Below the pieces are notes generated by a model that saw only the letters and a program-made list of their open reading frames with translations, had not been told where the DNA came from and searched no databases. Below, one piece after another: positions 45,495 through 64,000 of a stretch of 64,000 nt of DNA. Source of the stretch: Myxococcales bacterium (lineage in GTDB: Bacteria > Myxococcota_A > Polyangia > Haliangiales > Haliangiaceae); contig JAEUJY010000167.1 in assembly GCA_016794525.1 (NCBI GenBank), forward strand, positions 124,001-188,000, in the 5' to 3' direction. Numbering within the stretch: position 1 is the first letter of the stretch; the number at the start of each line of letters is the position of its first letter. The position numbers and the translations under genes are program-made.

Positions 45495-47096
45495 CTACCC
45501 CGGCGGCAAGTACCCGTCGCGACGGTAGTTTCCGCGATCCGTCGGCCACACCAGGCAGTTCGAAGCCGCCCCCGGCACCTTGTAGATCAGCGTCTGGCGA
45601 ACGCGGTCCTCGCCGTCCTTGAGCGACACCAGGATCTCCGGCGCGCCGTCGCCGTCGACGTCGCCGATCGTCGGCACGGGCATCGCGCCGCGGCCCGGCA
45701 GGTCGAGCGCGTGGCGCTGGTTGCCGGCGGCGTCGAGCACGATCAGCCGTCCGCCGCTCGCCGAGTACGTCGCGAAGACGATCTCGGGCACGCCGTCGCC
45801 CGACAGGTCGGCGACCACGACGCCGCCGGTGACCTCGGTGTCGCGCTGCGCGAAGTCGCGGGCCCACATCACCTGGGCGCGCGCGTCGACCGCGTGGATG
45901 CGGCCGTCGAAGCCGGCGAACACCAACTCGGGGCCGGGCCGCGTCGGATCCAGATCGGCCACCGCCACCTGGTTGGTCGCGCCGACGAGGTTGTCGCCGA
46001 AGTCCCACAGCCCGGCGCGGTAGTCGGCGAAGTGCGGCGGCGCGATCCACGCGTCGGGGCGCGTGCCGTCGGCGCGGGTCACCCACAGCGCCACCCCGTG
46101 CTCGCGCTGGTCCTGCGCGGTGTTCTGGACCGAGCCGAGCAAGATGATCTCGCCGGTGCCGTCGCCGTCGAGGTCGGCGATCGCCGGCCCGGTGTTGGTG
46201 AAGTGCCCCTGCAGGTCGACGGCCTCGTCGTCGGCGTAGCCCTGCTGCGCGAGGCGGTAGTCGAGCATCATCCGGATGCCGCTGTACTTGGTGCGCCCGT
46301 CGAAGATCGCCGCGGCGTCGAACGCGCGCCCGGTGCCGTCGTGGGCCGAGACGTAGGCGTTGTCCTGCGCCGCGACGATGTCGACGCGGCCGTCGCCGTC
46401 GACGTCGCCCAGCCCGACGTTCTGATCGTAGCCGCCGGTCACGTAGCAGGCGTCGTCGCAGCCGGCGGCGCCGCCGGTGTTGGGCGGGAAGCCGGCCACC
46501 GCGCGGCCGTCGCGCTCGACCGCGATGACGATGTCGCGCTGACCGCCGGCGTCGAGCGGCGTGGTCGTGACCGCGACCAGCTCGAGCGCGCCGTCGCCGT
46601 CGATGTCACCGGCGGCGAGGCTGCGCAGCTCGTCGCGCCACGCGAACGGGAAGCCGGGCAGCGCGGCGCCGGTGGCGTCGAACGCGAAGATGCTGTCGCG
46701 CGACGCCACCGCGACCTCGAGGCCGGGGCGGCTCGGCAGCAGGTCGGCCACCACCGGCGACGCCCAGATGCGGCCGCCGGTCGTCGCGCGCCACGCCTCG
46801 ACCGGCGCGCCGCCGACGATCCGCCACACCACCAGCAGCTCGTCGCGCGGCACCACCAGCTCGGCGGTGCCGTCGGCGTCGAGGTCGACCACCGCCGGCG
46901 ACGCCAGCCAGCCCTCGTGCCAGCGATCGGCGAGCGTGTAGGCCAGCACCGGCGCGGCCACGTCGGGCGAGCCGGTCTCCGCCGGGGCGCAGGCCGGCAC
47001 CGGCAGCGGCGCCGGCGGGCCGTCGCCGCCGTCATCGCCGCCGCACGCGATCGTCGCCACCGCCAGCGCGGCGACCGGCCTCAGCACGACCGACAC
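45495..47096 (-). CDS. FG-GAP/VCBS-repeat lipoprotein
   Basis: A 533-residue lipoprotein (lipobox VATIAC). Repeats of the FG-GAP/integrin-alpha type occur throughout (AVVDLDADGTAELVV, AAGDIDGDGALELVAV, GLGDVDGDGRVDIVA, AIADLDGDGTGEIIL, VADLSGDGVPEIVFA, TIGDVDGDGAPEILVS) and are expected to form a seven-bladed beta-propeller with calcium-binding DxDGDG loops. It is probably an outer-surface ligand-binding protein. The GTG start is inside the end of the upstream Cys-rich lipoprotein gene. It is the last gene of a kinase-led operon. Confidence 0.85.
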   Translation of the reverse strand: MSVVLRPVAALAVATIACGGDDGGDGPPAPLPVPACAPAETGSPDVAAPVLAYTLADRWHEGWLASPAVVDLDADGTAELVVPRDELLVVWRIVGGAPVEAWRATTGGRIWASPVVADLLPSRPGLEVAVASRDSIFAFDATGAALPGFPFAWRDELRSLAAGDIDGDGALELVAVTTTPLDAGGQRDIVIAVERDGRAVAGFPPNTGGAAGCDDACYVTGGYDQNVGLGDVDGDGRVDIVAAQDNAYVSAHDGTGRAFDAAAIFDGRTKYSGIRMMLDYRLAQQGYADDEAVDLQGHFTNTGPAIADLDGDGTGEIILLGSVQNTAQDQREHGVALWVTRADGTRPDAWIAPPHFADYRAGLWDFGDNLVGATNQVAVADLDPTRPGPELVFAGFDGRIHAVDARAQVMWARDFAQRDTEVTGGVVVADLSGDGVPEIVFATYSASGGRLIVLDAAGNQRHALDLPGRGAMPVPTIGDVDGDGAPEILVSLKDGEDRVRQTLIYKVPGAASNCLVWPTDRGNYRRDGYLPPG

Positions 47097-52714: not shown

Positions 52715-54088
52715 ATGCCTGCCCAGCTCACGATCGCCGGCGCCGCCGGCGGGGTCACCGGGAGCTGCTACCACCTCGCCTTCGACGGCACCGCGATCGT
52801 CATCGACTGCGGCACGTTCCAGGGCGGGCGCGAGGCCGACGCGCTCAACCATCGTTCGTTCCCGTTCGATCCGGCCCGGGTCGACGCGCTGTTCCTGACC
52901 CACGGCCACCTCGACCACGCCGGCCGGGTGCCGCTGCTGGTCGCGCAGGGCTTCACCGGCCCCGTCCACGGCACGCCGGCCACGCTCGAGATCGGCTCCA
53001 TGATCATGGAGGACACGGTCAAGATCGCGGCCCACGCCGAGGGCCCGCCGCTGTACGACGCGGCGGCGCTGGGCGCGACGCGCGAGCGGCTGCGGCCGCT
53101 GCGCGGCTACCGCGCGCCGATCACCGTCGGCGCGTTCACCGTCGAGGCCTTCGACGCCGGCCACATCCTCGGCTCGAGCCACCTGCGGGTCAGCTGGCGC
53201 GACGGCGGCGCCGAGCGCGCGCTCCTGTTCTCGGGCGACATCGGCGTGTGCGGCACGCCGATCATCCGCGATCCCACGCTGGCCTGGGATCCGGCGCTGG
53301 CGGTCGACTACGTCATCACCGAGTCGACCTACGGCGATCGCACGCACCCCGATCGGGGCGCGGCCAAGGCCACGTTCCGCGAGGCGGTCGCCCGCGCCAT
53401 CGGCGACGGCGGCAAGGTGCTCATCCCGGCGTTCGCGATCGGCCGCACCCAGGAGATCCTGTACGAGCTCGAGGGGCTGATCGGCAGCGGCGCGCTGCCG
53501 GTCGTGCCGGTCGTGATCGACGGGCCGCTGTCGGCGACCGCGACCCAGCTCTACGCGCGCTACCGCGGCCTCTACGACGAGGAGGCGCTGGCGGCGCTGG
53601 CGCGCGACGATCACCCGCTCGAGCTGGACTCGCTCACCGTCGGGCGCGACGGCCGGGCCGCGGCCAAGATCAGCGATCGCGACGGCCCGGCGATCATCAT
53701 CGCCGGCTCGGGCATGTGCAACGGCGGCCGCATCCGCGGCCACCTGGCGCGCCACCTGCCCGACCCGCGCACCGACGTGCTCCTCGTCGGCTACCAGGGC
53801 GCGCGCACGCTGGGCCGCGCGCTCGAGGACGGCGCCCACGAGGTGTGGATCGACGGCCGGTCGATCCCGGTGCGCGGCCGGGTCACGCGGCTGTCGGGCT
53901 ACTCGGCCCACGCCGATCGCGACGGCCTGGCCGCGTGGTTCGGCGCGGTGCCGCGGCGCGGCGCGGCGACGGCGATCGTCACCCACGGCGAGGACGAGGC
54001 GCGCGCCAGCTACGCCGCGCTGCTCGGCGATCGCTTCGGCGCGCCGACGATCGTGCCCGCGCTCGATCAGACCATCGCGCTGCCGTGA
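52715..54088 (+). CDS. Beta-CASP metallo-beta-lactamase fold RNase/exonuclease
   Basis: A 457-residue member of the MBL-fold RNA-specific nuclease group (RNase J/CPSF-like). HGHLDHAG at about residue 63 and FDAGHILGSSH provide the metal ligands. The beta-CASP part includes FSGDIGVCG, ESTYGDR, AFAIGRTQEILY, GSGMCNGGRI and SGYSAHADRDGL, ending with VTHGEDEA (C-terminal His). It probably processes RNA ends. The next gene overlaps its stop by GTGA, an unexpected coupling to an aminotransferase. Confidence 0.93.
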   Translation: MPAQLTIAGAAGGVTGSCYHLAFDGTAIVIDCGTFQGGREADALNHRSFPFDPARVDALFLTHGHLDHAGRVPLLVAQGFTGPVHGTPATLEIGSMIMEDTVKIAAHAEGPPLYDAAALGATRERLRPLRGYRAPITVGAFTVEAFDAGHILGSSHLRVSWRDGGAERALLFSGDIGVCGTPIIRDPTLAWDPALAVDYVITESTYGDRTHPDRGAAKATFREAVARAIGDGGKVLIPAFAIGRTQEILYELEGLIGSGALPVVPVVIDGPLSATATQLYARYRGLYDEEALAALARDDHPLELDSLTVGRDGRAAAKISDRDGPAIIIAGSGMCNGGRIRGHLARHLPDPRTDVLLVGYQGARTLGRALEDGAHEVWIDGRSIPVRGRVTRLSGYSAHADRDGLAAWFGAVPRRGAATAIVTHGEDEARASYAALLGDRFGAPTIVPALDQTIALP

Positions 54089-55143
54089 CCGCCATCCCGT
54101 TCTTCGACATGCGCGGCGAGGTCGCCGCGATCCGCCCGGCCATCGACGCCGCGATCGCCCGCGTGCTCGACCACGGCGGCTTCGTCGGCGGCGCCGAGGT
54201 CGAGGCCTTCGAGCGCGCGCTGGCCGCGGCCACCGGCGTCGCCCGCGCCGTCGGCACCAGCTCGGGCACCGACGCGCTCCTGACGATCGCGATGGCGCTC
54301 GGCTGGGGCCCGGGTGACGAGGTCGTCACGACGCCGCTGTCGTTCTTCGCCACCGTCGGCGCGATCGTCCGGGTCGGCGCGCGGCCGGTGTTCGCCGACG
54401 TCGACGCCAGCCTCAACGCCGATCCCCAGGCGGTCGCGGCGGCGGTCGGCCCGCACACCCGCGCCGCGCTGCTGGTGCACCTGTTCGGGCGCCCGGCCGC
54501 GTGGCCGGCGCTCGACGTGCCGATCGTCGAGGACGCCGCCCAGGCGATCGGCGCGGCGCCGGTGCGCGGCGTCGCCGCGGCGCTGTCGTTCTTCCCGACC
54601 AAGAACCTCGGCGCCTGCGGCGACGGCGGCGCGGTCTTGACCGACGACCCGGCGCTGGCCGATCGGATCGCGCTCTTGCGCAACCACGGCGCGCGGCCCA
54701 AGTACCACCACGTCGCGGTCGGCGGGAACTTCCGGCTCGACGCGCTGCAGGCCGCGATCCTCGGCGCCAAGCTGCCGCACCTGCCGGCGTGGACCGCCGC
54801 CCGCCGGGCCCGCGCCGATCGCTACCGCGCCGGGCTGGCCGACCTGCCCGAGGTGCGCGTCCCCGTCGACGATCCGCGCCACGTCTACCACCACTTCGTC
54901 GTCCGGGCCGAGGCCCGCGATCGCCTGCGCGCGCACCTCGCGGCCGCCGGCATCGGCACCGAGGTCTACTACCCGTCGCCGCTGCACCTGCAGCCGGCGC
55001 TGGCGGAGCTCGGCTACCGCGCCGGCGCGTGCCCCGCCGCCGAGGCCGCCTGCGCCGAACTCGTCGCGCTACCGCTCTACCCCAGCCTGCCGCTGGCGGC
55101 GGTCGACCGCGTCGTCGAGCAGGTGCGCGCCTGCTACCGCTGA
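54085..55143 (+). CDS. DegT/DnrJ/EryC1-family aminotransferase
   Basis: A 352-residue PLP-dependent sugar aminotransferase-type enzyme. Key motifs are GTSSGTDAL (phosphate binding), PLSFFATVGAI, VEDAAQAIG (Asp for PLP ring nitrogen) and SFFPTKNLGACGDGG, where Lys (about residue 173) forms the aldimine. It probably aminates a nucleotide-linked keto-sugar for surface polysaccharide, but no other sugar genes are near. The GTG start overlaps the upstream stop. The 3' end overlaps the convergent S26 peptidase gene by 10 bp. Confidence 0.9.
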   Translation: MTAIPFFDMRGEVAAIRPAIDAAIARVLDHGGFVGGAEVEAFERALAAATGVARAVGTSSGTDALLTIAMALGWGPGDEVVTTPLSFFATVGAIVRVGARPVFADVDASLNADPQAVAAAVGPHTRAALLVHLFGRPAAWPALDVPIVEDAAQAIGAAPVRGVAAALSFFPTKNLGACGDGGAVLTDDPALADRIALLRNHGARPKYHHVAVGGNFRLDALQAAILGAKLPHLPAWTAARRARADRYRAGLADLPEVRVPVDDPRHVYHHFVVRAEARDRLRAHLAAAGIGTEVYYPSPLHLQPALAELGYRAGACPAAEAACAELVALPLYPSLPLAAVDRVVEQVRACYR

Positions 55144-55568
55144 CGCACGCGCGCGAGCCCGACCCGCAGCCCGGCCCGGGCCAGCCGCACCGCCGCGCGC
55201 AGCCGCTGGGTCAGCGACACCGGCCCGCGCGCCACCTCCGCCACGCCGATCACCTGCGCGTCGTGCACCAGCCCCAGCGCGGGCGCGACCTGGTTGTCGC
55301 CGGCGTGGACCCACCAGCCCAGCCCCGGCGCCCGGGCCAGCAGCCGGTGCAGCTCGAGCTGGCCGCCGCGGGTCACGAACGCCGCGACCTCGCCGATCCG
55401 CGGCCGGCCGGCCCGCACCCGCACCGCGTCGCCGCGGCGGATCACCGGCTCCATCGACACCCCGCCACACGTCACCGTCAGCCCGCCGTCACCCCCGCCT
55501 CGCGCGCGCTCCCGCAGCAGCTCGATCCGCGCGCGCACGCTGGGCGCCAGGTCGAGCCGGGGGATCAC
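55134..55568 (-). CDS. S26-family signal-peptidase-like protein, soluble, ER-type Ser/His
   Basis: A 144-residue protein. Residues about 33-51 read TCGGVSMEPVIRRGDAVRV, the S24/S26 Ser box (Ser38). About residues 70-92 give LELHRLLAR...WWVHAGDNQ, matching box D/E with His74 in place of the catalytic Lys and Asp91; this is the ER/SipW/archaeal-type arrangement. No transmembrane helix is visible before the Ser box, so it is probably cytoplasmic. The GTG start overlaps the stop codon of the 52-residue peptide gene (GTGA), which points to that peptide, or another in the cluster, as substrate. Confidence 0.8.
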   Translation of the reverse strand: MIPRLDLAPSVRARIELLRERARGGGDGGLTVTCGGVSMEPVIRRGDAVRVRAGRPRIGEVAAFVTRGGQLELHRLLARAPGLGWWVHAGDNQVAPALGLVHDAQVIGVAEVARGPVSLTQRLRAAVRLARAGLRVGLARVRQR

Positions 55569-55723
55569 GAGCTCTGCGGGTTGCCGCCGGGACAGGTGAA
55601 GCGGTTCGACTTGGCGCACGACAGCGCCATGGTCTCGAACACCTCGTCGCTCACGACCGCCGGCCGCTCGTAGGGGCGACGCGACGACGCGGCTTGCTCG
55701 GACTTCTTGCGCTCGGTGCTCAT
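55565..55723 (-). CDS. Candidate RiPP-like precursor peptide (52 aa)
   Basis: A small gene for a 52-residue peptide. The N-terminal half is charged (MSTERKKSEQAASSRR). It is followed by PYERPAVVSDEVFETMALSC, which contains a YxxP motif (residues 18-21) of the kind that PqqD-like recognition elements bind in lasso-peptide leaders. The tail AKSNRFTCPGGNPQSS holds the second of two cysteines (Cys36 and Cys44). A TAGCCT box and CTGGAG precede the ATG. The gene is coupled to the S26 peptidase and lies 43 bp after the large FG-GAP gene, in a locus with PqqD, radical SAM, HprK-like and methyltransferase genes. The precursor role is inference; the frame is clear. Confidence 0.68.
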   Translation of the reverse strand: MSTERKKSEQAASSRRPYERPAVVSDEVFETMALSCAKSNRFTCPGGNPQSS

Positions 55724-55732
55724 GATCGACTC

Positions 55733-55738
55733 CAGAGG
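55733..55738 (-). promoter_or_regulatory. TAGCCT box before peptide gene
   Basis: The minus strand reads TAGCCT-CTGGAGTCGATC-ATG, a -10-like box with a CTGGAG site 6 nt before the start. Confidence 0.4.
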
Positions 55739-55766
55739 CTAGCAGACATCGGGTCCATGGGCGAGG

Positions 55767-58700
55767 TCACATCCCGTCGTCCCACAGGAGCTGGAACCCG
55801 CCGTCGCGGCTGTTGCTGGTCCAGTCAGCCCAACAGACGTCATCCAGGCCGTCAGCGTTCACGTCGCCGGCCCAGATCGCGTTGACCGGGGAGCCGCCGA
55901 TGCCCGGGACCGCCCCCAGGAAGCTGGAAGGTCCCGTGATCACATGATCCGGCGCCGGGTTGAAGCTGACCAGCGGGCCGAACCACACCTCCAGCACCGC
56001 TGGCCCGGCCACCGCCTGCCGCGACGCGACCACGAGGTCCTCGTTGCCATCGCCGTTGACGTCCGGGTTGGTGCCGTTGGCGTTGTTCACCACCGCCATG
56101 CCGCGCGCCTGGTTGTTCGCGCTGCCCAGGAGCGGGGTGATGACCGGCGCGCCCCACGCGCCGACGCCGGTGGTGATGATCGTGGCCACGCCGCCCGTCC
56201 CGACGGTGTCGCCATCGACCACGAGGACGATGCCGACGTCGCCGTTGTACCGGTAGTCGCCGAGCACCAGCTCGCGGGCGCCGTCGCCGTTCTGGTCGGC
56301 GATCGACGCCGCGGTCGAGCCGAACTCCATGATGGTGTCGACGGTGGTCACGTGGATGCGCACGTCGCGCCCGATCGTGAACGGCTCGCGGGTCACGCCG
56401 GCGGCGCCGGGTCGCCCGCCGCTCGACCGCATCACCTTCAGGTCGGCGCCGGCCGCGCTGTCCTCGGCGTAGCCGACCACGAGGTCGTCAGCCGGGTCGG
56501 CGATGCCGGTGGTCGGGCCGACGTTGTGCAGGTAGTAGCCGAAGAAGTTGAAGCCAGCCTCCTCGTACATGCGGATCACCGCGGTGCCGCTGCCCGCCGC
56601 CGAGGCGTCCGAGATGCGGACCGTGCCGGTGGGCACCGTGCCGCCGTAGAACACCAGCGCCGCGCCCGCGTTGCCGGAGTTGCCGAACACCGCGCTGGTG
56701 ACCAGGTCGTCGGTGCCGTCGCCGTCGTGATCGGCCGCGGCCAGCTGCCAGCCCAGCGCGCTGCCCGAGAACCAGTTGACCGTCGTCGACGACAGGATCC
56801 GGCGCGGCGCGCTGGCCGGCGTCGTGGTCCCGGTCGGGAACGCGGCGCCGCCGTTCCACACGTAGATCGCGCCGCTGGTGCCATCGCCGAACGGTTCGCC
56901 GACCACCAGGTCGCTGCGGGTGGTGCTGCTCCAGCGCACCGCGGCCAAGGACGAGCCGAACGCGGCGTCGGCGGTGACGCCGCGCAGCGTGACCGACGGC
57001 GTGGTGGCCAGGCCGGTGGCCGAGCCGAAGTACACGTAGACCTCGCCGGCGCCGGCCACGCCGGCCGCGGTCACGAACGGCGCGCTCACCGCGACGTCCT
57101 CGAAGTCGTCGTCGTTGAACTTGCCGCGCACCATCGCCAGGCCGAACCCGGCGTCTCCGACGGTGTTGGGCGCGCCGAGCACCGCCGCCTGATCGAAGCG
57201 CGGCGTCAGCGGCCCGGCCACCTGCGCCGCCGAGCGGTTGCCCGCGTCGTCGACCGAGGCCACCGCGACCCAGTACGCGGTGCCGGCGCGCAGCGGCCGC
57301 ACCCGGACGGTCTCGGCGCTGCCAGCCGCGCCCGGCGTGGGGGCAGTCACCGCGGTGCCGGTGGTGTCGAAGTTGGCGTCGGTCAGCGCCGTGGTCGAGA
57401 AGCGGATGCGGTAGCTCGCCGCGCCGGCCGGCGCGGTGAAGCCCAGCCGGATCGACTGCCGGGTGTCGGCCACCGCGGTCAGGCCGGTCGGCGCGCCGGG
57501 CGGCGTCAGGTCGACGATCAGCGGCAGCGTCGCCGAGCCGGTGCGGGGCACCAGCGTGGCGGTGGCGACGATGCTGTACGCGGTGGCGCGGCCGGCCAGC
57601 GTCAGCGTCAGCGACCACGACGTGCCCGTGACGACCGCGGCCTGGGGCGCGCCGCCGTCGACCGAGATCGCGACCGTCGCGCCAACGACCGAGACGGTGC
57701 CGGTGAGCGCGAAGGTCAGGTTCGAGCCGACGACCGTGCCGTCCGCGCCGCCGACCGTGCCGTCGGCCGCCGAGCCGGTGAAGTTCACCGCGATGTCGGC
57801 CAGGTTGACGACGCAGTTCGCCGACGTGCCGACGTTGCCGGCGCCGTCGGAGGCGCGGCCCACCATCGTGTTGGCCCCCGGCTGGACGGTCACGAACACC
57901 TCGCCGCCGGGCGCGGTCACCGGCAGGGTCACCGTCGTGCTGCCGCTGGTGACGTCGATCTCGCGGTTCATCGCCAGCGGCGCGGTCAGGCGCATCCGCA
58001 CCTGCACGCCCGCGGCGGCCGCGTCCTGGTCCTGGGCCGGGGTGACCGTTCCGCCGCACGCGACGCCCACCGGCTGCGACACCTGGAGCGCGACGTTGGG
58101 CGCGAGGTTGTCGAACGCCAGGTTCACGCCGGCGGTGGTCTCGATGCCGTCGGCCGAGGTCACGCGCAGCGTGCACATCTCGCTGGCCTCGCATGGCACG
58201 CCGTCGCACACCGTCGCGCGCAGCGCGATCGCGCCGCCCGCGCCGACCACGACGCCGGGGTCGGTGCTGCCGCAGTCCGAGGTGATCATCTGCCCCACGC
58301 ACTCGGGCGCGCTGGCCGTGATGTCGATCTGCGCGCCGTTGGTGCCGTCGCCGTCGGCGTCGGTGGTCACCGTGCCGGTCGGCGCGCTGACGGTGATCGT
58401 GCAGCCGGCCAGCACGACGCGGTAGGCCTGGTCGACCATGCAGGTGTTGCCGGCGTGGTCGGCGGTCGCGAACCGCACCGTGTAGTCGGCCGGCGAGGTC
58501 GCCGGATCGAAGGTCGCCGCGGCGGTCGACTGGCCGGTCGCGTCGCGGTCGGTGCCGACCAGCGCGGTCGTGCCGCCGCCCGGCGCGGTGATCGTGAAGC
58601 TCGCGGCCTCGCCCTCGCCGTCGCCGCCGTCGCCGCCGCCGCGCAGCGTGACCTGGATGCCGTCGCTGAGGTCGTTGTTGGCGTCGACGCCCGGCGTGAT

Positions 58701-59486
58701 GCTGGTGCCCGGCGTCGGATCGATCATCGCGCACGCCGGCGCGACGGTGTCGACGAACACCGAGGTCACGCCCGAGGAGCGCGAGGTGACGCCGTCGGCG
58801 ACGCCGCACTCGGCGCGCAGGTTGACCTGGCCCTCGGGCGCGCTGGTGGCCAGGCTGACCGTGCCGGCGTCGCCGATCGTGCCGGCCGCGACCTCCATCT
58901 CGGGCACGCCGGGCGCCGACAGGAACAGCTTGACCTGCTCGCCGGGCCGCGCGGTGATGATCGTGTCGCCCTGGAAGCCGGCGGTCGCCGCGTCGGCGTC
59001 GGCCTCGGCGTTCCACACGTCGAGCGGCGCGTAGAACGGGTTGCTCGCCGGCGGCGTCGCGAAGCTGAGCGCGCAGTCACCGCCGCCCACCAGCGAGACG
59101 GACACCTCGTCGGAGTCGTTGCCGCACTGGCCGGCGTCGGACTCGACCCGCAGCGTCGCGCCGGTGGCGGGGATGGTCACGTCGGCGAACGTGAAGTTGC
59201 CGTCGCGATCGGTGCGCCCGGTCAGGGTCGCCACGACGGCGTTCTCGGCGTCGCTGACCGTCAGCGTCACCGAGGCGTCGCTGAACGTCGACTTGACGAC
59301 GACGTCCTGCTGGATGCCGTCGGTCCCGGGATCGCTGTCGGCGATGATCGGCCCCTGCGGCGACGAGATGAACACCAGGCTCTCGACCTGACACACCGGC
59401 CCGTCGCCACAGCCGGCGAGGGCAGAGAACACGGCACAGGTCGCGACGAGCGAACGTCCGAGCATGCGGAGCGAGGTCGAGGTCAT
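55767..59486 (-). CDS. Large FG-GAP/Ig-like/FN3 lipoprotein
   Basis: A 1239-residue lipoprotein (lipobox SALAGC). The first 700 residues are Ig-like or bacterial adhesin-type modules with many NGAQIDI, SFTITAPGGGT and AVVTGTSWSLTL strands. A fibronectin-III-like module follows (APTGLTAVADTRQSIRLGF...GTAYWVAVASVDDAGNRS). The last 450 residues are FG-GAP repeats forming a propeller (FGLAMVRGKFNDDDFEDVAV, LAAADHDGDGTDDLVTS, VNGDGNEDLVVAS, AGDVNADGLDDV). ATG 59486 was chosen because GGAAGGA lies 6-7 nt upstream; a longer frame exists. It lies between the radical SAM and peptide genes, so it may be the surface carrier or target of the pathway. Confidence 0.85.
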   Translation of the reverse strand: MTSTSLRMLGRSLVATCAVFSALAGCGDGPVCQVESLVFISSPQGPIIADSDPGTDGIQQDVVVKSTFSDASVTLTVSDAENAVVATLTGRTDRDGNFTFADVTIPATGATLRVESDAGQCGNDSDEVSVSLVGGGDCALSFATPPASNPFYAPLDVWNAEADADAATAGFQGDTIITARPGEQVKLFLSAPGVPEMEVAAGTIGDAGTVSLATSAPEGQVNLRAECGVADGVTSRSSGVTSVFVDTVAPACAMIDPTPGTSITPGVDANNDLSDGIQVTLRGGGDGGDGEGEAASFTITAPGGGTTALVGTDRDATGQSTAAATFDPATSPADYTVRFATADHAGNTCMVDQAYRVVLAGCTITVSAPTGTVTTDADGDGTNGAQIDITASAPECVGQMITSDCGSTDPGVVVGAGGAIALRATVCDGVPCEASEMCTLRVTSADGIETTAGVNLAFDNLAPNVALQVSQPVGVACGGTVTPAQDQDAAAAGVQVRMRLTAPLAMNREIDVTSGSTTVTLPVTAPGGEVFVTVQPGANTMVGRASDGAGNVGTSANCVVNLADIAVNFTGSAADGTVGGADGTVVGSNLTFALTGTVSVVGATVAISVDGGAPQAAVVTGTSWSLTLTLAGRATAYSIVATATLVPRTGSATLPLIVDLTPPGAPTGLTAVADTRQSIRLGFTAPAGAASYRIRFSTTALTDANFDTTGTAVTAPTPGAAGSAETVRVRPLRAGTAYWVAVASVDDAGNRSAAQVAGPLTPRFDQAAVLGAPNTVGDAGFGLAMVRGKFNDDDFEDVAVSAPFVTAAGVAGAGEVYVYFGSATGLATTPSVTLRGVTADAAFGSSLAAVRWSSTTRSDLVVGEPFGDGTSGAIYVWNGGAAFPTGTTTPASAPRRILSSTTVNWFSGSALGWQLAAADHDGDGTDDLVTSAVFGNSGNAGAALVFYGGTVPTGTVRISDASAAGSGTAVIRMYEEAGFNFFGYYLHNVGPTTGIADPADDLVVGYAEDSAAGADLKVMRSSGGRPGAAGVTREPFTIGRDVRIHVTTVDTIMEFGSTAASIADQNGDGARELVLGDYRYNGDVGIVLVVDGDTVGTGGVATIITTGVGAWGAPVITPLLGSANNQARGMAVVNNANGTNPDVNGDGNEDLVVASRQAVAGPAVLEVWFGPLVSFNPAPDHVITGPSSFLGAVPGIGGSPVNAIWAGDVNADGLDDVCWADWTSNSRDGGFQLLWDDGM

Positions 59487-59525
59487 GGACGGTCCTTCCC
59501 GGTCAGCCAGCATCAAGGCCACGAA

Positions 59526-60716
<1,191 letters not shown>

Positions 60717-60773
60717 GGCGTTGGCCCGACGTGGCCGGGGCGGGTACCAGGATAGACCCGGGGGCCGGCGGCA

Positions 60774-61610
60774 TCAACCCGCGGGCACGCGGGCGACGGG
60801 AGCTGCGATCTCGAGCACGGTGCCGACATGGGGGTCCTTTCGAAAGTGCAGGTGGAAGCACGGCGTGGTCGCGGTGATCGCGGCCACCACCTCGAGCACC
60901 CGCGCCGCGGTGGTGGGCTCGGCGACGTAGACCAGGACGTGGCGCAGCAGCTCGCGCAGCGCGGCGCCCGGCGGCACCGGGTCGCGGCGGTCGAACGGCG
61001 CCTGCACGAGGAAGTGGATCGCGGCCAGCGGCGCGGCGGCGCCGTGGGCCACGCCGGCCGGCCCGAGGTACGGCGGCACCTCGAGCGTGACGCCGGCGTC
61101 GGTCGGGCGCAGCACCAGCAGCTCGTCGGCGATCTTGGTGCAGCTCGGGTAGGCGTCGGCCAGCATCGACGAGATCGTCGACTTGCCGGCGCCGCTGACC
61201 CCGGTGAACACCAGCGCGCGGCCGGCGTGGGCCACCGCCGAGGCGTGCAGGATCACGGCGCCGTCCCGGGCCAGCGCCACCGACGCCGCGATCCGCACGC
61301 AGGCCTCGAGGCTGTTGGCCGACGGGCCCACCTGGAACGCGGCGGTGATCGGCGTCGCCGCGACGTCGACCACGCCCTCGGCGTCGTAGCGCTCGACGCG
61401 CAGCCGGCCGTCGTCGGTGGCGCGCCGCTCGAAGGCCGGGTAGCCGGGGCCCGGCTCGCGATCGAACCCGGCGACCCGCGCCACGGTGATCACCAGCCGC
61501 GGCGGCTCGGCGGTGGCGAAGCGGGCGTAGATCGGCGCCAGGTCGTCGAGGTCCCCGGGCTGGGACGCGACGACCTCGATCGGCAGGCCGGCGAAGCGAA
61601 AGCGAGGCAC
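60774..61610 (-). CDS. HPr kinase-like P-loop protein
   Basis: A 278-residue protein of the HprK-related group. A Walker A GVSGAGKST occurs at about residues 136-144, followed by ADELLVLRPT, the Asp-rich strand typical of HPr kinase. The N-terminal 120 residues (RFRFAGLPIEVVASQPGDL) match the N-domain of HprK-related kinases found with PqqD in peptide systems. It may phosphorylate a Ser in a carrier or peptide; no HPr gene is nearby. The GTG start has TAACCT 6 nt upstream. Confidence 0.83.
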   Translation of the reverse strand: MPRFRFAGLPIEVVASQPGDLDDLAPIYARFATAEPPRLVITVARVAGFDREPGPGYPAFERRATDDGRLRVERYDAEGVVDVAATPITAAFQVGPSANSLEACVRIAASVALARDGAVILHASAVAHAGRALVFTGVSGAGKSTISSMLADAYPSCTKIADELLVLRPTDAGVTLEVPPYLGPAGVAHGAAAPLAAIHFLVQAPFDRRDPVPPGAALRELLRHVLVYVAEPTTAARVLEVVAAITATTPCFHLHFRKDPHVGTVLEIAAPVARVPAG

Positions 61611-61616
61611 GTCGAG

Positions 61617-61622
61617 AGGTTA
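61617..61622 (-). promoter_or_regulatory. TAACCT box 6 nt before HprK-like gene
   Basis: The minus strand reads TAACCT-CTCGAC-GTG at 61610. It suggests an internal promoter in the peptide-modification locus. Confidence 0.5.
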
Positions 61623-61645
61623 GTGCAGATCCAGGGGGCTGGCGT

Positions 61646-62308
61646 TCACGGCCGGCGCGCCACCACCGCCGCGTGGCTCCACAGCGGCACCGGCGTCCGG
61701 GCGTCGACCCAGGCCGGGATCGCCAGCGCGTACGGCCACCAGCGCACCGAGCGCAGCCGCACGATCCGCTCGACGACGAAGCCGGCGCCGACCAGCGTCG
61801 CGACCAGCGCCGCGGTGTCGGCGGGCTGCCACAGCTCGGGCGGTGGCGGCGCCGCAGCCCGCCACGTCAGCGTCCGCCGCGGGTACAGGTGCGCGGCCAG
61901 CGCGCCGCCCGGCCGCAGCACCCGCGCGATCTCGGGCAGCGCGACCGCCGGGTCCAGGTAGCGCAGCGCGCCCTTGCCGGCGATCACCGCGTCGACGCTG
62001 GCGCTGGCGATCGGCAGCGCGTGGCCGTCGGCCTGCACCACCGCGAGGCCCCGGGCCCGGGCGTGCGCGAGCATGCGCGCCGCGACGTCGACGCCGACCC
62101 GCGTCGGCGCGGCGACCTGCGCGAGCAGCCGCCCGGTGCCGACGCCGATCTCCAGCACCCGCGCCGCGCCGCGGGTCGCGTCGAGCAGCACGCGATCGAT
62201 CGCGCGGGCGCGCGCGGCGCCGCGGCGGTCGGCGTGGCGCGCGTCGTAGCCGTCGGCCCCGGCGTCGTAGCCCGCGGCCACCGCGCGCCGATCGCGCGGC
62301 GCGGTCAC
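61646..62308 (-). CDS. SAM-dependent class I methyltransferase
   Basis: A 220-residue Rossmann-fold methyltransferase of the UbiE/Methyltransf_11 type. Motif I is VLEIGVGTGRLL, motif II is VGVDVAARML, followed by VVQADGHALPIASASVDAVI and IARVLRPGGALAAHLYP. The acceptor is unknown; its position in the locus suggests methylation of the peptide or a cofactor. The GTG start overlaps the PqqD stop (GTGA), and its stop is 35 bp from the HprK-like start. Confidence 0.88.
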   Translation of the reverse strand: MTAPRDRRAVAAGYDAGADGYDARHADRRGAARARAIDRVLLDATRGAARVLEIGVGTGRLLAQVAAPTRVGVDVAARMLAHARARGLAVVQADGHALPIASASVDAVIAGKGALRYLDPAVALPEIARVLRPGGALAAHLYPRRTLTWRAAAPPPPELWQPADTAALVATLVGAGFVVERIVRLRSVRWWPYALAIPAWVDARTPVPLWSHAAVVARRP

Positions 62309-62571
62309 GGCTCGACGACGAGGATGTGCCGCGCGACCAGATCGTCGAGGCACACCGCCGCGTCGGCGCGCGCGGTCGCCAGGTCGACCTCGTACTCCTT
62401 GCACAGCTCGGCCGCGGCGTCGTCGACCGAGGCCCCGGCGGCCGACAGCTTCCACAGGAGCGTCGCCGCGCCGTTGAGCGTGTGCAGCTTGTTGTCGTCG
62501 GGCGTCACCACGAACGCCTGCCCATCGATGACGCGGCCGGCGGTCTGCGGGTTGCGGCGGTAGCGCGCCAT
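62305..62571 (-). CDS. PqqD-family peptide-binding protein
   Basis: An 88-residue protein, the size of PqqD/RiPP recognition elements. It has the family pattern GRVIDGQAFVVTPDDNKLHTLNGAATLLWKL and DLATARADAAVCLDDLVARHILV. In known pathways PqqD presents the precursor leader to the radical SAM enzyme. ATG 62571 was chosen, not a longer frame, because the TAGCGT box lies 7 nt upstream and the family begins there. That box includes the TAG stop codon of the TetR gene. It heads the peptide-modification set and is coupled to the methyltransferase. Confidence 0.88.
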   Translation of the reverse strand: MARYRRNPQTAGRVIDGQAFVVTPDDNKLHTLNGAATLLWKLSAAGASVDDAAAELCKEYEVDLATARADAAVCLDDLVARHILVVEP

Positions 62572-62578
62572 GGCGGCT

Positions 62579-62584
62579 ACGCTA
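62579..62584 (-). promoter_or_regulatory. TAGCGT box 7 nt before PqqD gene
   Basis: The minus strand reads TAGCGT-AGCCGCC-ATG at 62571. The first three bases are the stop codon of the TetR gene. Confidence 0.5.
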
Positions 62585-63186
62585 CACGCCGGCGGCGGGC
62601 GCGGCAATCGTCGCCACCAGGCCGCGCAGCACCGCGGCCACGTCGGCCAGCGGCGCCGTCGAGCGCTGCACCTTGGCGAGCAAGAGCGCGCCCTCGACGG
62701 CGGCCAGCGTGAACGTCGCCAGCCGCGCCGCCAGCGCCGGCGGCGCGCCGAGCGCGGTCACCCGCGCGGCGATCGACGCCAGCCACGCGTCGTAGCTCGC
62801 CGCCACCGTCGCGCGCACCGCCTCGGACGTGCCGGCCGCCTCGAGCGCGACCGTCGCCAGCGGGCAGCCCTCGCGGAAGTCGGTCGCCACCAGCTCGGCC
62901 GCCAGCTCGTCGCACACCGCGGTGATCGCGCTCGCGACGTCCGGCGCGCGGGCGATCACCGCCTCGAGCCGGGCCCGCCACGCCGCGCCGGTGTCGGCCA
63001 GCGCCGCGCACGCCAGGTCCTCCTTGCCGCCGGGGAAGTGGAAGTACAGCGAGCCGCGCGGCGCGTCGGCGGTCGCGACCACGTCGGCCAGCGCGGTCGC
63101 GTGGTAGCCCTGCCGCCGCAACAGCGTCGCGGCGGCCTCGGTCAGGCGCGCGCGGGTGCGCTCGCCCTTGGTCGGGCGCGGCGGGT

Positions 63187-63190
<4 letters not shown>
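62582..63190 (-). CDS. TetR-family transcriptional regulator
   Basis: A 202-residue regulator with an N-terminal TetR HTH (RARLTEAAATLLRRQGYHAT...GSLYFHFPGGKEDL) and a ligand-binding helical C-domain similar to the TetR_C group with CDELAAELV and FREGCPLATVALEAAG (LmrA/YxaF type). The GTG start overlaps the stop of the flavin oxidoreductase gene (GTGA), so it probably controls that enzyme. It lies directly upstream of the PqqD gene but is separated from it by a start-proximal box. Confidence 0.9.

Positions 63191-64000
<810 letters not shown>

Follow-up and report, generated by a model that had tools for sequence, protein, structure and literature searches.

The window analysed here, a 64,000-nucleotide stretch covering positions 124001-188000 of contig C72 in the 9.8 Mb genome (G000; 96.7% complete) of a member of the Myxococcota, contains seven minus-strand genes at 55134-62571 which, judged from sequence, probably form a conserved, functional cassette for a ribosomally synthesized and post-translationally modified peptide (RiPP). 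An earlier note had placed seven such genes here in close order, from a PqqD protein to an S26 peptidase, and gene calls and profile scans found all of them, with the domains claimed. The features, in window coordinates, are these.

62305..62571, minus strand: PqqD-family protein, a discrete RiPP recognition element (RRE); PF05402, E = 6.5e-13
61646..62308, minus strand: S-adenosylmethionine (SAM)-dependent methyltransferase, accessory; PF08241, E = 7.9e-16
60774..61610, minus strand: HprK-like kinase; TIGR04352, E = 5.5e-7 (below the cut-off), and model fold
59526..60716, minus strand: radical SAM/SPASM maturase; PF04055, E = 5.1e-18, and PF13186, E = 1.7e-12
55767..59486, minus strand: giant lipoprotein of 1239 amino acids; FG-GAP, E = 2.2e-8
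55565..55723, minus strand: precursor peptide gene, 52 amino acids; adjoins the lipoprotein gene in relatives, under purifying selection
55631..55723, minus strand: predicted leader, residues 1-31; YERP at 18-21 and FET at 29-31
55568..55630, minus strand: predicted core, residues 32-52, MALSCAKSNRFTCPGGNPQSS; Cys36, Cys44 and C-terminal Ser52
55134..55568, minus strand: S26 protein, a putative leader peptidase similar to type I signal peptidases (SpI-like), 144 amino acids; weak TIGR02228 match, Ser/His/Asp
62582..63190, minus strand: TetR-family regulator directly upstream, a possible operon member; PF00440, E = 4.6e-11, and PF21993, E = 2.4e-26

On the sequence evidence the 52-residue open reading frame (ORF) is a real gene, because it is in place in six of the seven members of the genus and has been under purifying selection; the contig of the seventh genome (G003) stops within the lipoprotein gene. 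The ratio of nonsynonymous to synonymous differences (pN/pS) for residues 17-52 was 0.12-0.46 in all 15 pairs of the six members, and 0.17-0.79 for the whole peptide, the N-terminus varying more freely. The peptide stop codon overlaps the GTG start of the peptidase gene in the sequence GTGA. The peptide matched nothing in NCBIfam, Pfam or the PDB.

The nearest described system found is that of the linear polyphosphorylated peptides (LPPs), RiPPs of the Bacillota (Popov et al., May 2026; PMC13381572). According to the main text of that paper, LPP precursors carry the motif YxxPxVLxHQxIxFETxxS and are cut after FET by an SpI-like peptidase to which a discrete RRE presents them; Ser3 of the core is phosphorylated by an HprK-like kinase, and an NTP transferase (nucleotidyltransferase) and an MsbA-like exporter complete the core set (PMC13381572). 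In the RRE, LppB, residues N33 and D70 hold the leader motif by its Pro and Tyr (PMC13381572). The same text calls LPPs restricted to Bacillota and states the roles of LPPs and of paeninodins to be unknown (PMC13381572).

The window peptide follows the same leader plan in the terms of that main text, YxxP and then F-3, E-2 and T-1, its leader motif reading YERPAVVSDEVFET. For a wider view 59 distinct precursors were collected by profile and filtered for [YW]xxP at 20-48 residues from the end; hits without [YW]xxP (hence the truncated L038), exact duplicates and L190, which had no hit with the refined profile, were left out. Phe stands at Y/W+11 in 44 of the 59 and Glu at +12 in 46. The PqqD protein has LppB itself as its best PDB sequence match (9x8z, chain B; E = 2.2e-4) and keeps both N33 and D70, the numbering agreeing for 12 of the 12 residues named in the LPP paper as seen in its main text (PMC13381572). 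N33 is found in all 32 aligned PqqD relatives and D70 in 30. By sequence match and leader-holding residues the RRE is of the LppB kind.

The enzymes acting on an LPP-type precursor also have counterparts. The S26 protein scored weakly against profiles, all below cut-off (TIGR02228, E = 3.8e-4, 20.4 of 51.85 bits; PF00717, 16.1 of 23.3 bits), had no PDB sequence match and showed no membrane helix evident by eye. Its family alignment conserves Ser in 18 of 19 sequences, His in 19 and Asp in 17: the conserved catalytic set is Ser/His/Asp, which corrects the Ser/His pair proposed beforehand and agrees with the triad described for LppS in the LPP main text. An AlphaFold2 model of the HprK-like protein (predicted local distance difference test, pLDDT, 92.6) matched, with modest scores for template modelling (TM), phosphoenolpyruvate carboxykinase best (E = 1.6e-7; TM by query 0.51) and also HPr kinase (3tqf; E = 4.7e-5, TM by query 0.32). 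The Gly, Gly, Lys and Thr of Walker A are each invariant in 35 of 35 HprK-like sequences, and fold and motif together support an HprK-like kinase of the kind described for LPPs.

An NTP transferase lies just outside the window. A match to NTP_transf_5 (PF14907), the family to which LppN presumably also belongs, was found at G000:C72:188651-189220 on the plus strand, starting 651 bp past the right window edge; the gene is divergent from the PqqD gene and 2.1 kb away from it. All 34 genomes that carry the cassette, whole or in part, have an NTP_transf_5 match over the cut-off, compared with 6 of the 29 relatives presumed to lack it; these 29 had no radical SAM match at E <= 1e-20, apart from G028 with a marginal one, and 16 of them, including G028, come from one genus. 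By coordinates, no more than 0.3 kb separates the NTP_transf_5 gene from PqqD in G004, G005, G009 and G016; most other genomes have it elsewhere. It is probably a further member of the system.

What, then, sets this cassette apart? It includes a radical SAM/SPASM enzyme with CxxxCxxC and seven further Cys invariant among 14 aligned sequences, which goes beyond the linear product by which LPPs are defined; the terms 'radical SAM' and 'SPASM' are absent from the main text of the LPP paper (PMC13381572). As against the LPPs described there, the core has a Cys pair, a giant lipoprotein is encoded and the host belongs to the Myxococcota, not the Bacillota. Exactly two Cys follow the leader motif in 57 of the 59 precursors, and Ser or Thr stands within the last two residues in 58, the last residue being Ser in 44 and Thr in 6. 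The stretch outside the Cys pair and the C-terminal end varies in length and sequence, which leaves the two Cys and the hydroxyl residue at the C-terminal end as the constant features of the core.

This constancy bears on the idea that the peptide is the source of a small redox cofactor, like PQQ or mycofactocin, its core being trimmed to a few residues. Mycofactocin and PqqE models are among the best-scoring on the radical SAM enzyme, though far below cut-off, and a PqqD protein is present. Against this, precursors that otherwise diverge retain the two Cys and the C-terminal Ser/Thr, the cassette has a linked kinase and NTP transferase, and no dehydrogenase was noticed in the recurrent set among the neighbours listed, which are partly annotated. 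A cofactor is thus very unlikely.

Conservation of the gene set in related genomes had been set beforehand as a test, and the set proved to be conserved in the genus, with a core that recurs in the class. At E <= 1e-20, 28 of the 56 genomes compared have a match to the radical SAM enzyme, and all seven members of the genus are among them; of 16 genomes of g5, another genus in the family, just one has a match, and it is marginal (2.9e-21). Further cassette-type genes stand beside the radical SAM gene in 19 of 20 fetched regions, L041 having the radical SAM gene alone. By tblastn, lipoprotein and peptide lie beside it in L027, L028, L030-L035, L037 and L038, and the contigs of L029 and L036 break off inside the lipoprotein gene. 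The cassette of G006 is split, with HprK, radical SAM, lipoprotein, peptide and S26 on contig C8, and PqqD, methyltransferase and NTP_transf_5 within 4 kb on C39. The methyltransferase gene adjoins PqqD or HprK in 7 of 7 genus members (in G006, PqqD on the other contig); neighbourhood reading did not find it in many loci of the class. PqqD was not found in G003, a genome 75% complete.

Within the class, a profile built from ten peptides has hits at E <= 0.1 in 73 of 289 genomes, a number that includes chance matches. Twenty further loci were read, namely the 19 strongest not yet covered and that of G228, followed by 20 picked by peptide alone from the weaker hits (E 2.7e-5 to 0.004), with two secondary hits (G104:C20 and G164:C36) left out; L183 and L184 lie on the same contigs as L072 and L069. 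HprK, PqqD and radical SAM occur together in 17 of the 20 weaker loci. Among the other three, L191 has HprK and PqqD at a contig end (it is counted as radical SAM-bearing among the 59 precursors on a weak opposite-strand fragment), L194 is cut by a contig end, and L190 has none of the cassette genes and is therefore a false positive. Peptides of this kind also stand beside the enzymes in loci from Elusimicrobia, Rokubacteria, Acidobacteria and Halobacteriovorax; a pattern search for precursors in distant loci returned mostly chance ORFs.

The precursor also has variants. A second subtype, with 'W-E-E' or similar in mid-leader, occurs at L040:2296, L043 and L060-L063, once in the window's own family (G014). 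The related cassettes L186, L187, L192 and L195 have two HprK-like matches in a row, and their precursors end in Thr, not Ser.

Could the cassette be a plain LPP system, with a Ser near the start of the core phosphorylated, a linear polyphosphorylated product and the radical SAM enzyme a minor tailoring add-on? The kinds of leader, RRE, kinase, peptidase and NTP transferase all match those of the LPP main text, and three loci from Peptococcaceae and Desulfosporosinus (L082, L083 and L089) hold HprK, PqqD, S26, NTP_transf_5 and an ABC exporter beside the gene for a distant relative of the radical SAM enzyme (23-25% identity), which makes them a possible bridge between LPPs and the cassette. L082 and L083 each have two HprK-like matches, L083 has a Wzz gene, and short YxxP peptides lie near all three; a long ORF of L083 holding RPYEKP proved to encode an HD-domain protein. 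Other evidence points away from a plain LPP system. The position of the LPP phosphosite, core Ser3 in that main text, is Leu in the window peptide and in 41 of the 59 precursors, with Ser or Thr at the C-terminal end in 58, and at core position 4, Ser stands in 18 precursors and Ala in 23. In almost every locus read the radical SAM gene is accompanied by PqqD or HprK, so that its product looks like a core enzyme. No MsbA-like exporter of the kind described lies close to the cassette: the genes called between 45.0 and 64.0 kb, the only part of the genome searched for one, include no ABC transporter, and no exporter common to the loci appeared among the neighbour clusters listed. With the phosphosite, the linear product and the exporter all differing from the published main text, the cassette is not filed as an LPP member, and we regard such membership as unlikely.

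The locus had been put forward as undescribed. That holds in part: a peptide with a discrete RRE, an HprK-like kinase and an SpI-like peptidase is already described as the LPPs, while the combination with a radical SAM enzyme is not named in the main text of that paper. None of the titles listed by searches of open-licence literature describes this cassette, the LPP paper coming nearest.

Other peptide systems were compared as well. In paeninodin-type lasso peptides the C-terminal Ser is the kinase target. The cassette shares with them the RRE, the HprK-like kinase and the kind of NTP transferase, and differs in having a radical SAM enzyme and an SpI-like peptidase instead of the cyclase and B2 protease. 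The genes called between 45.0 and 64.0 kb, the only stretch examined for the cyclase, include neither an Asn-synthetase-like cyclase nor a transglutaminase-like B2 protein; genome-wide, PF13471 has two matches, one over cut-off on C48 and one below it on C59, both away from the contig of the cassette. A lasso cluster is rejected on this ground, in agreement with the earlier note. The same note's suggested relation to HPr-rel-A-type systems, based on an HprK-related kinase with a PqqD-like protein, did not hold, TIGR04352 and TIGR04353 reaching 29.0 of 200 and 15.2 of 35 bits. SynChlorMet clusters also combine HprK-like, PqqD-like and SPASM proteins, and ScmC, ScmD, ScmE and ScmF matched weakly; membership is rejected at 20.6/125, 17/100, 100.7/400 and 51.8/400 bits, and the window cassette differs in having one SPASM gene. 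Sactipeptides and ranthipeptides have a SPASM maturase and a Cys-containing core. The cassette resembles them in its maturase and in the two Cys of 57 of 59 cores, which are compatible with a thioether crosslink, and none of their models (AlbA, SkfB, StsB) scored over cut-off. A defence system was rejected as well, since PADLOC gave low-scoring similarity alone, to pVip, mad2 and VakA models.

The giant lipoprotein, encoded directly upstream of the peptide, carries a lipobox-like LAGC. It has a weak fn3 match below cut-off and a C-terminal FG-GAP propeller of integrin-like type: the last 650 amino acids were modelled (pLDDT 86.9), and the best PDB matches were integrin alpha heads (3fcu; E = 2.3e-13, TM 0.43 by query and 0.59 by target). 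The protein was aligned for 11 genomes, one of them truncated. In 38 of the 59 loci, scored by stop-to-stop frames, a long ORF (at least 600 amino acids, or shorter where a contig end cuts it) has its end no more than 450 nt upstream of the peptide motif, versus 23 of 237 control genes; the controls are called genes with a close same-strand neighbour, and their 23 positives include some cassette genes. The long ORF upstream in L060 is probably in the wrong frame, gene calling giving a 158-residue gene there. The upstream proteins of L072, L159, L162 and L170 bear EGF-like repeats in place of the propeller. Judged from gene order, the peptide may act jointly with the lipoprotein at the cell surface.

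The position of the lipoprotein gene, between the radical SAM and peptide genes in cassettes of the window type, might also mean that the lipoprotein is the substrate of the kinase or of the radical SAM enzyme and the small peptide a regulator. Yet 19 of the 59 loci lack a long upstream ORF and keep peptide, PqqD, HprK and radical SAM together, and it is the peptide that bears the RRE-binding and cleavage motifs (the lipoprotein was not searched for these). We give this explanation hardly any credence.

Two observations stand beside these. The cassettes of L158, L159, L162, L166 and L072, among which L072, L159 and L162 have the EGF-repeat upstream protein, lie near apparent ATP synthase genes, an identity that we assume from the starts of the proteins. 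Another FG-GAP protein with a lipoprotein-like start is encoded at 45495-47096 of the window.

Neighbouring genes are not counted in the core. The TetR regulator does not adjoin PqqD in L028 or L035. With an FMN oxidoreductase gene at 63187-63978, cut by the window edge, it sits between PqqD and NTP_transf_5 in the host; the pair was rejected as core, though the gap between PqqD and NTP_transf_5 in G006 is similar in size. On the other side, genes for a beta-CASP metallo-beta-lactamase and a DegT aminotransferase at 52715-55143 (plus strand) are convergent with the cassette, and five other members of the genus have at least one of the two close to theirs.

Leader, RRE, peptidase and maturase features together support the RiPP-like nature claimed for the locus. 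We consider it likely that the cassette joins LPP-type leader handling with radical SAM chemistry, and infer the following reactions and their order. The PqqD protein would bind the YERP motif of the leader, and the SPASM enzyme would then modify the 21-residue core, most likely via the two near-invariant Cys in a thioether or similar crosslink. The HprK-like kinase would phosphorylate a Ser, most likely the C-terminal one, after which the nucleotidyltransferase may elaborate the phosphate. The S26 peptidase would cut after FET to release the core, and the mature peptide would work with the giant lipoprotein as a surface-displayed partner, ligand or cargo.

Several points weigh against this reading. 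PqqD lies away from the rest of the cassette in G001, G005, G006 and G008, and no S26 gene was found near the peptide in G007 (L033), where 0.8 kb of contig remains downstream. Of the 29 relatives presumed to lack the cassette, 14 have an NTP_transf_5 match that is at least weak, and the transporter missing from 45.0-64.0 kb counts here too. Nine of the 59 precursors do not end exactly in Ser or Thr; the motif counts partly reflect selection, because the precursors were profile-collected and [YW]xxP-filtered, and the locus counts are not independent events, because many loci are related. The chemistry of the radical SAM enzyme cannot be read from its sequence. The upstream giant ORF carries other domains in some loci and is missing in 21 of 59, 19 of which still have HprK, PqqD and radical SAM, so the enzymes can stay together without it.

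A more specific and rather doubtful proposal is that a peptide crosslinked by the radical SAM enzyme, Ser-phosphorylated and perhaps nucleotidylated, serves as the dedicated ligand or displayed cargo of the integrin-like or EGF-repeat lipoprotein; myxobacteria would then have a family of matched peptide-receptor pairs on their surface that serve in contact or in recognising kin. For the family as a whole, LPP-like machinery, described in the LPP main text as Bacillota-restricted, extends to the Myxococcota and, by single loci, to several other phyla, and is joined here to radical SAM chemistry unmentioned in that text. The near-universal Cys pair and C-terminal Ser/Thr provide concrete, testable sites, and the recurrent pairing with giant lipoproteins bearing eukaryote-like adhesion modules hints at a function at the cell surface.

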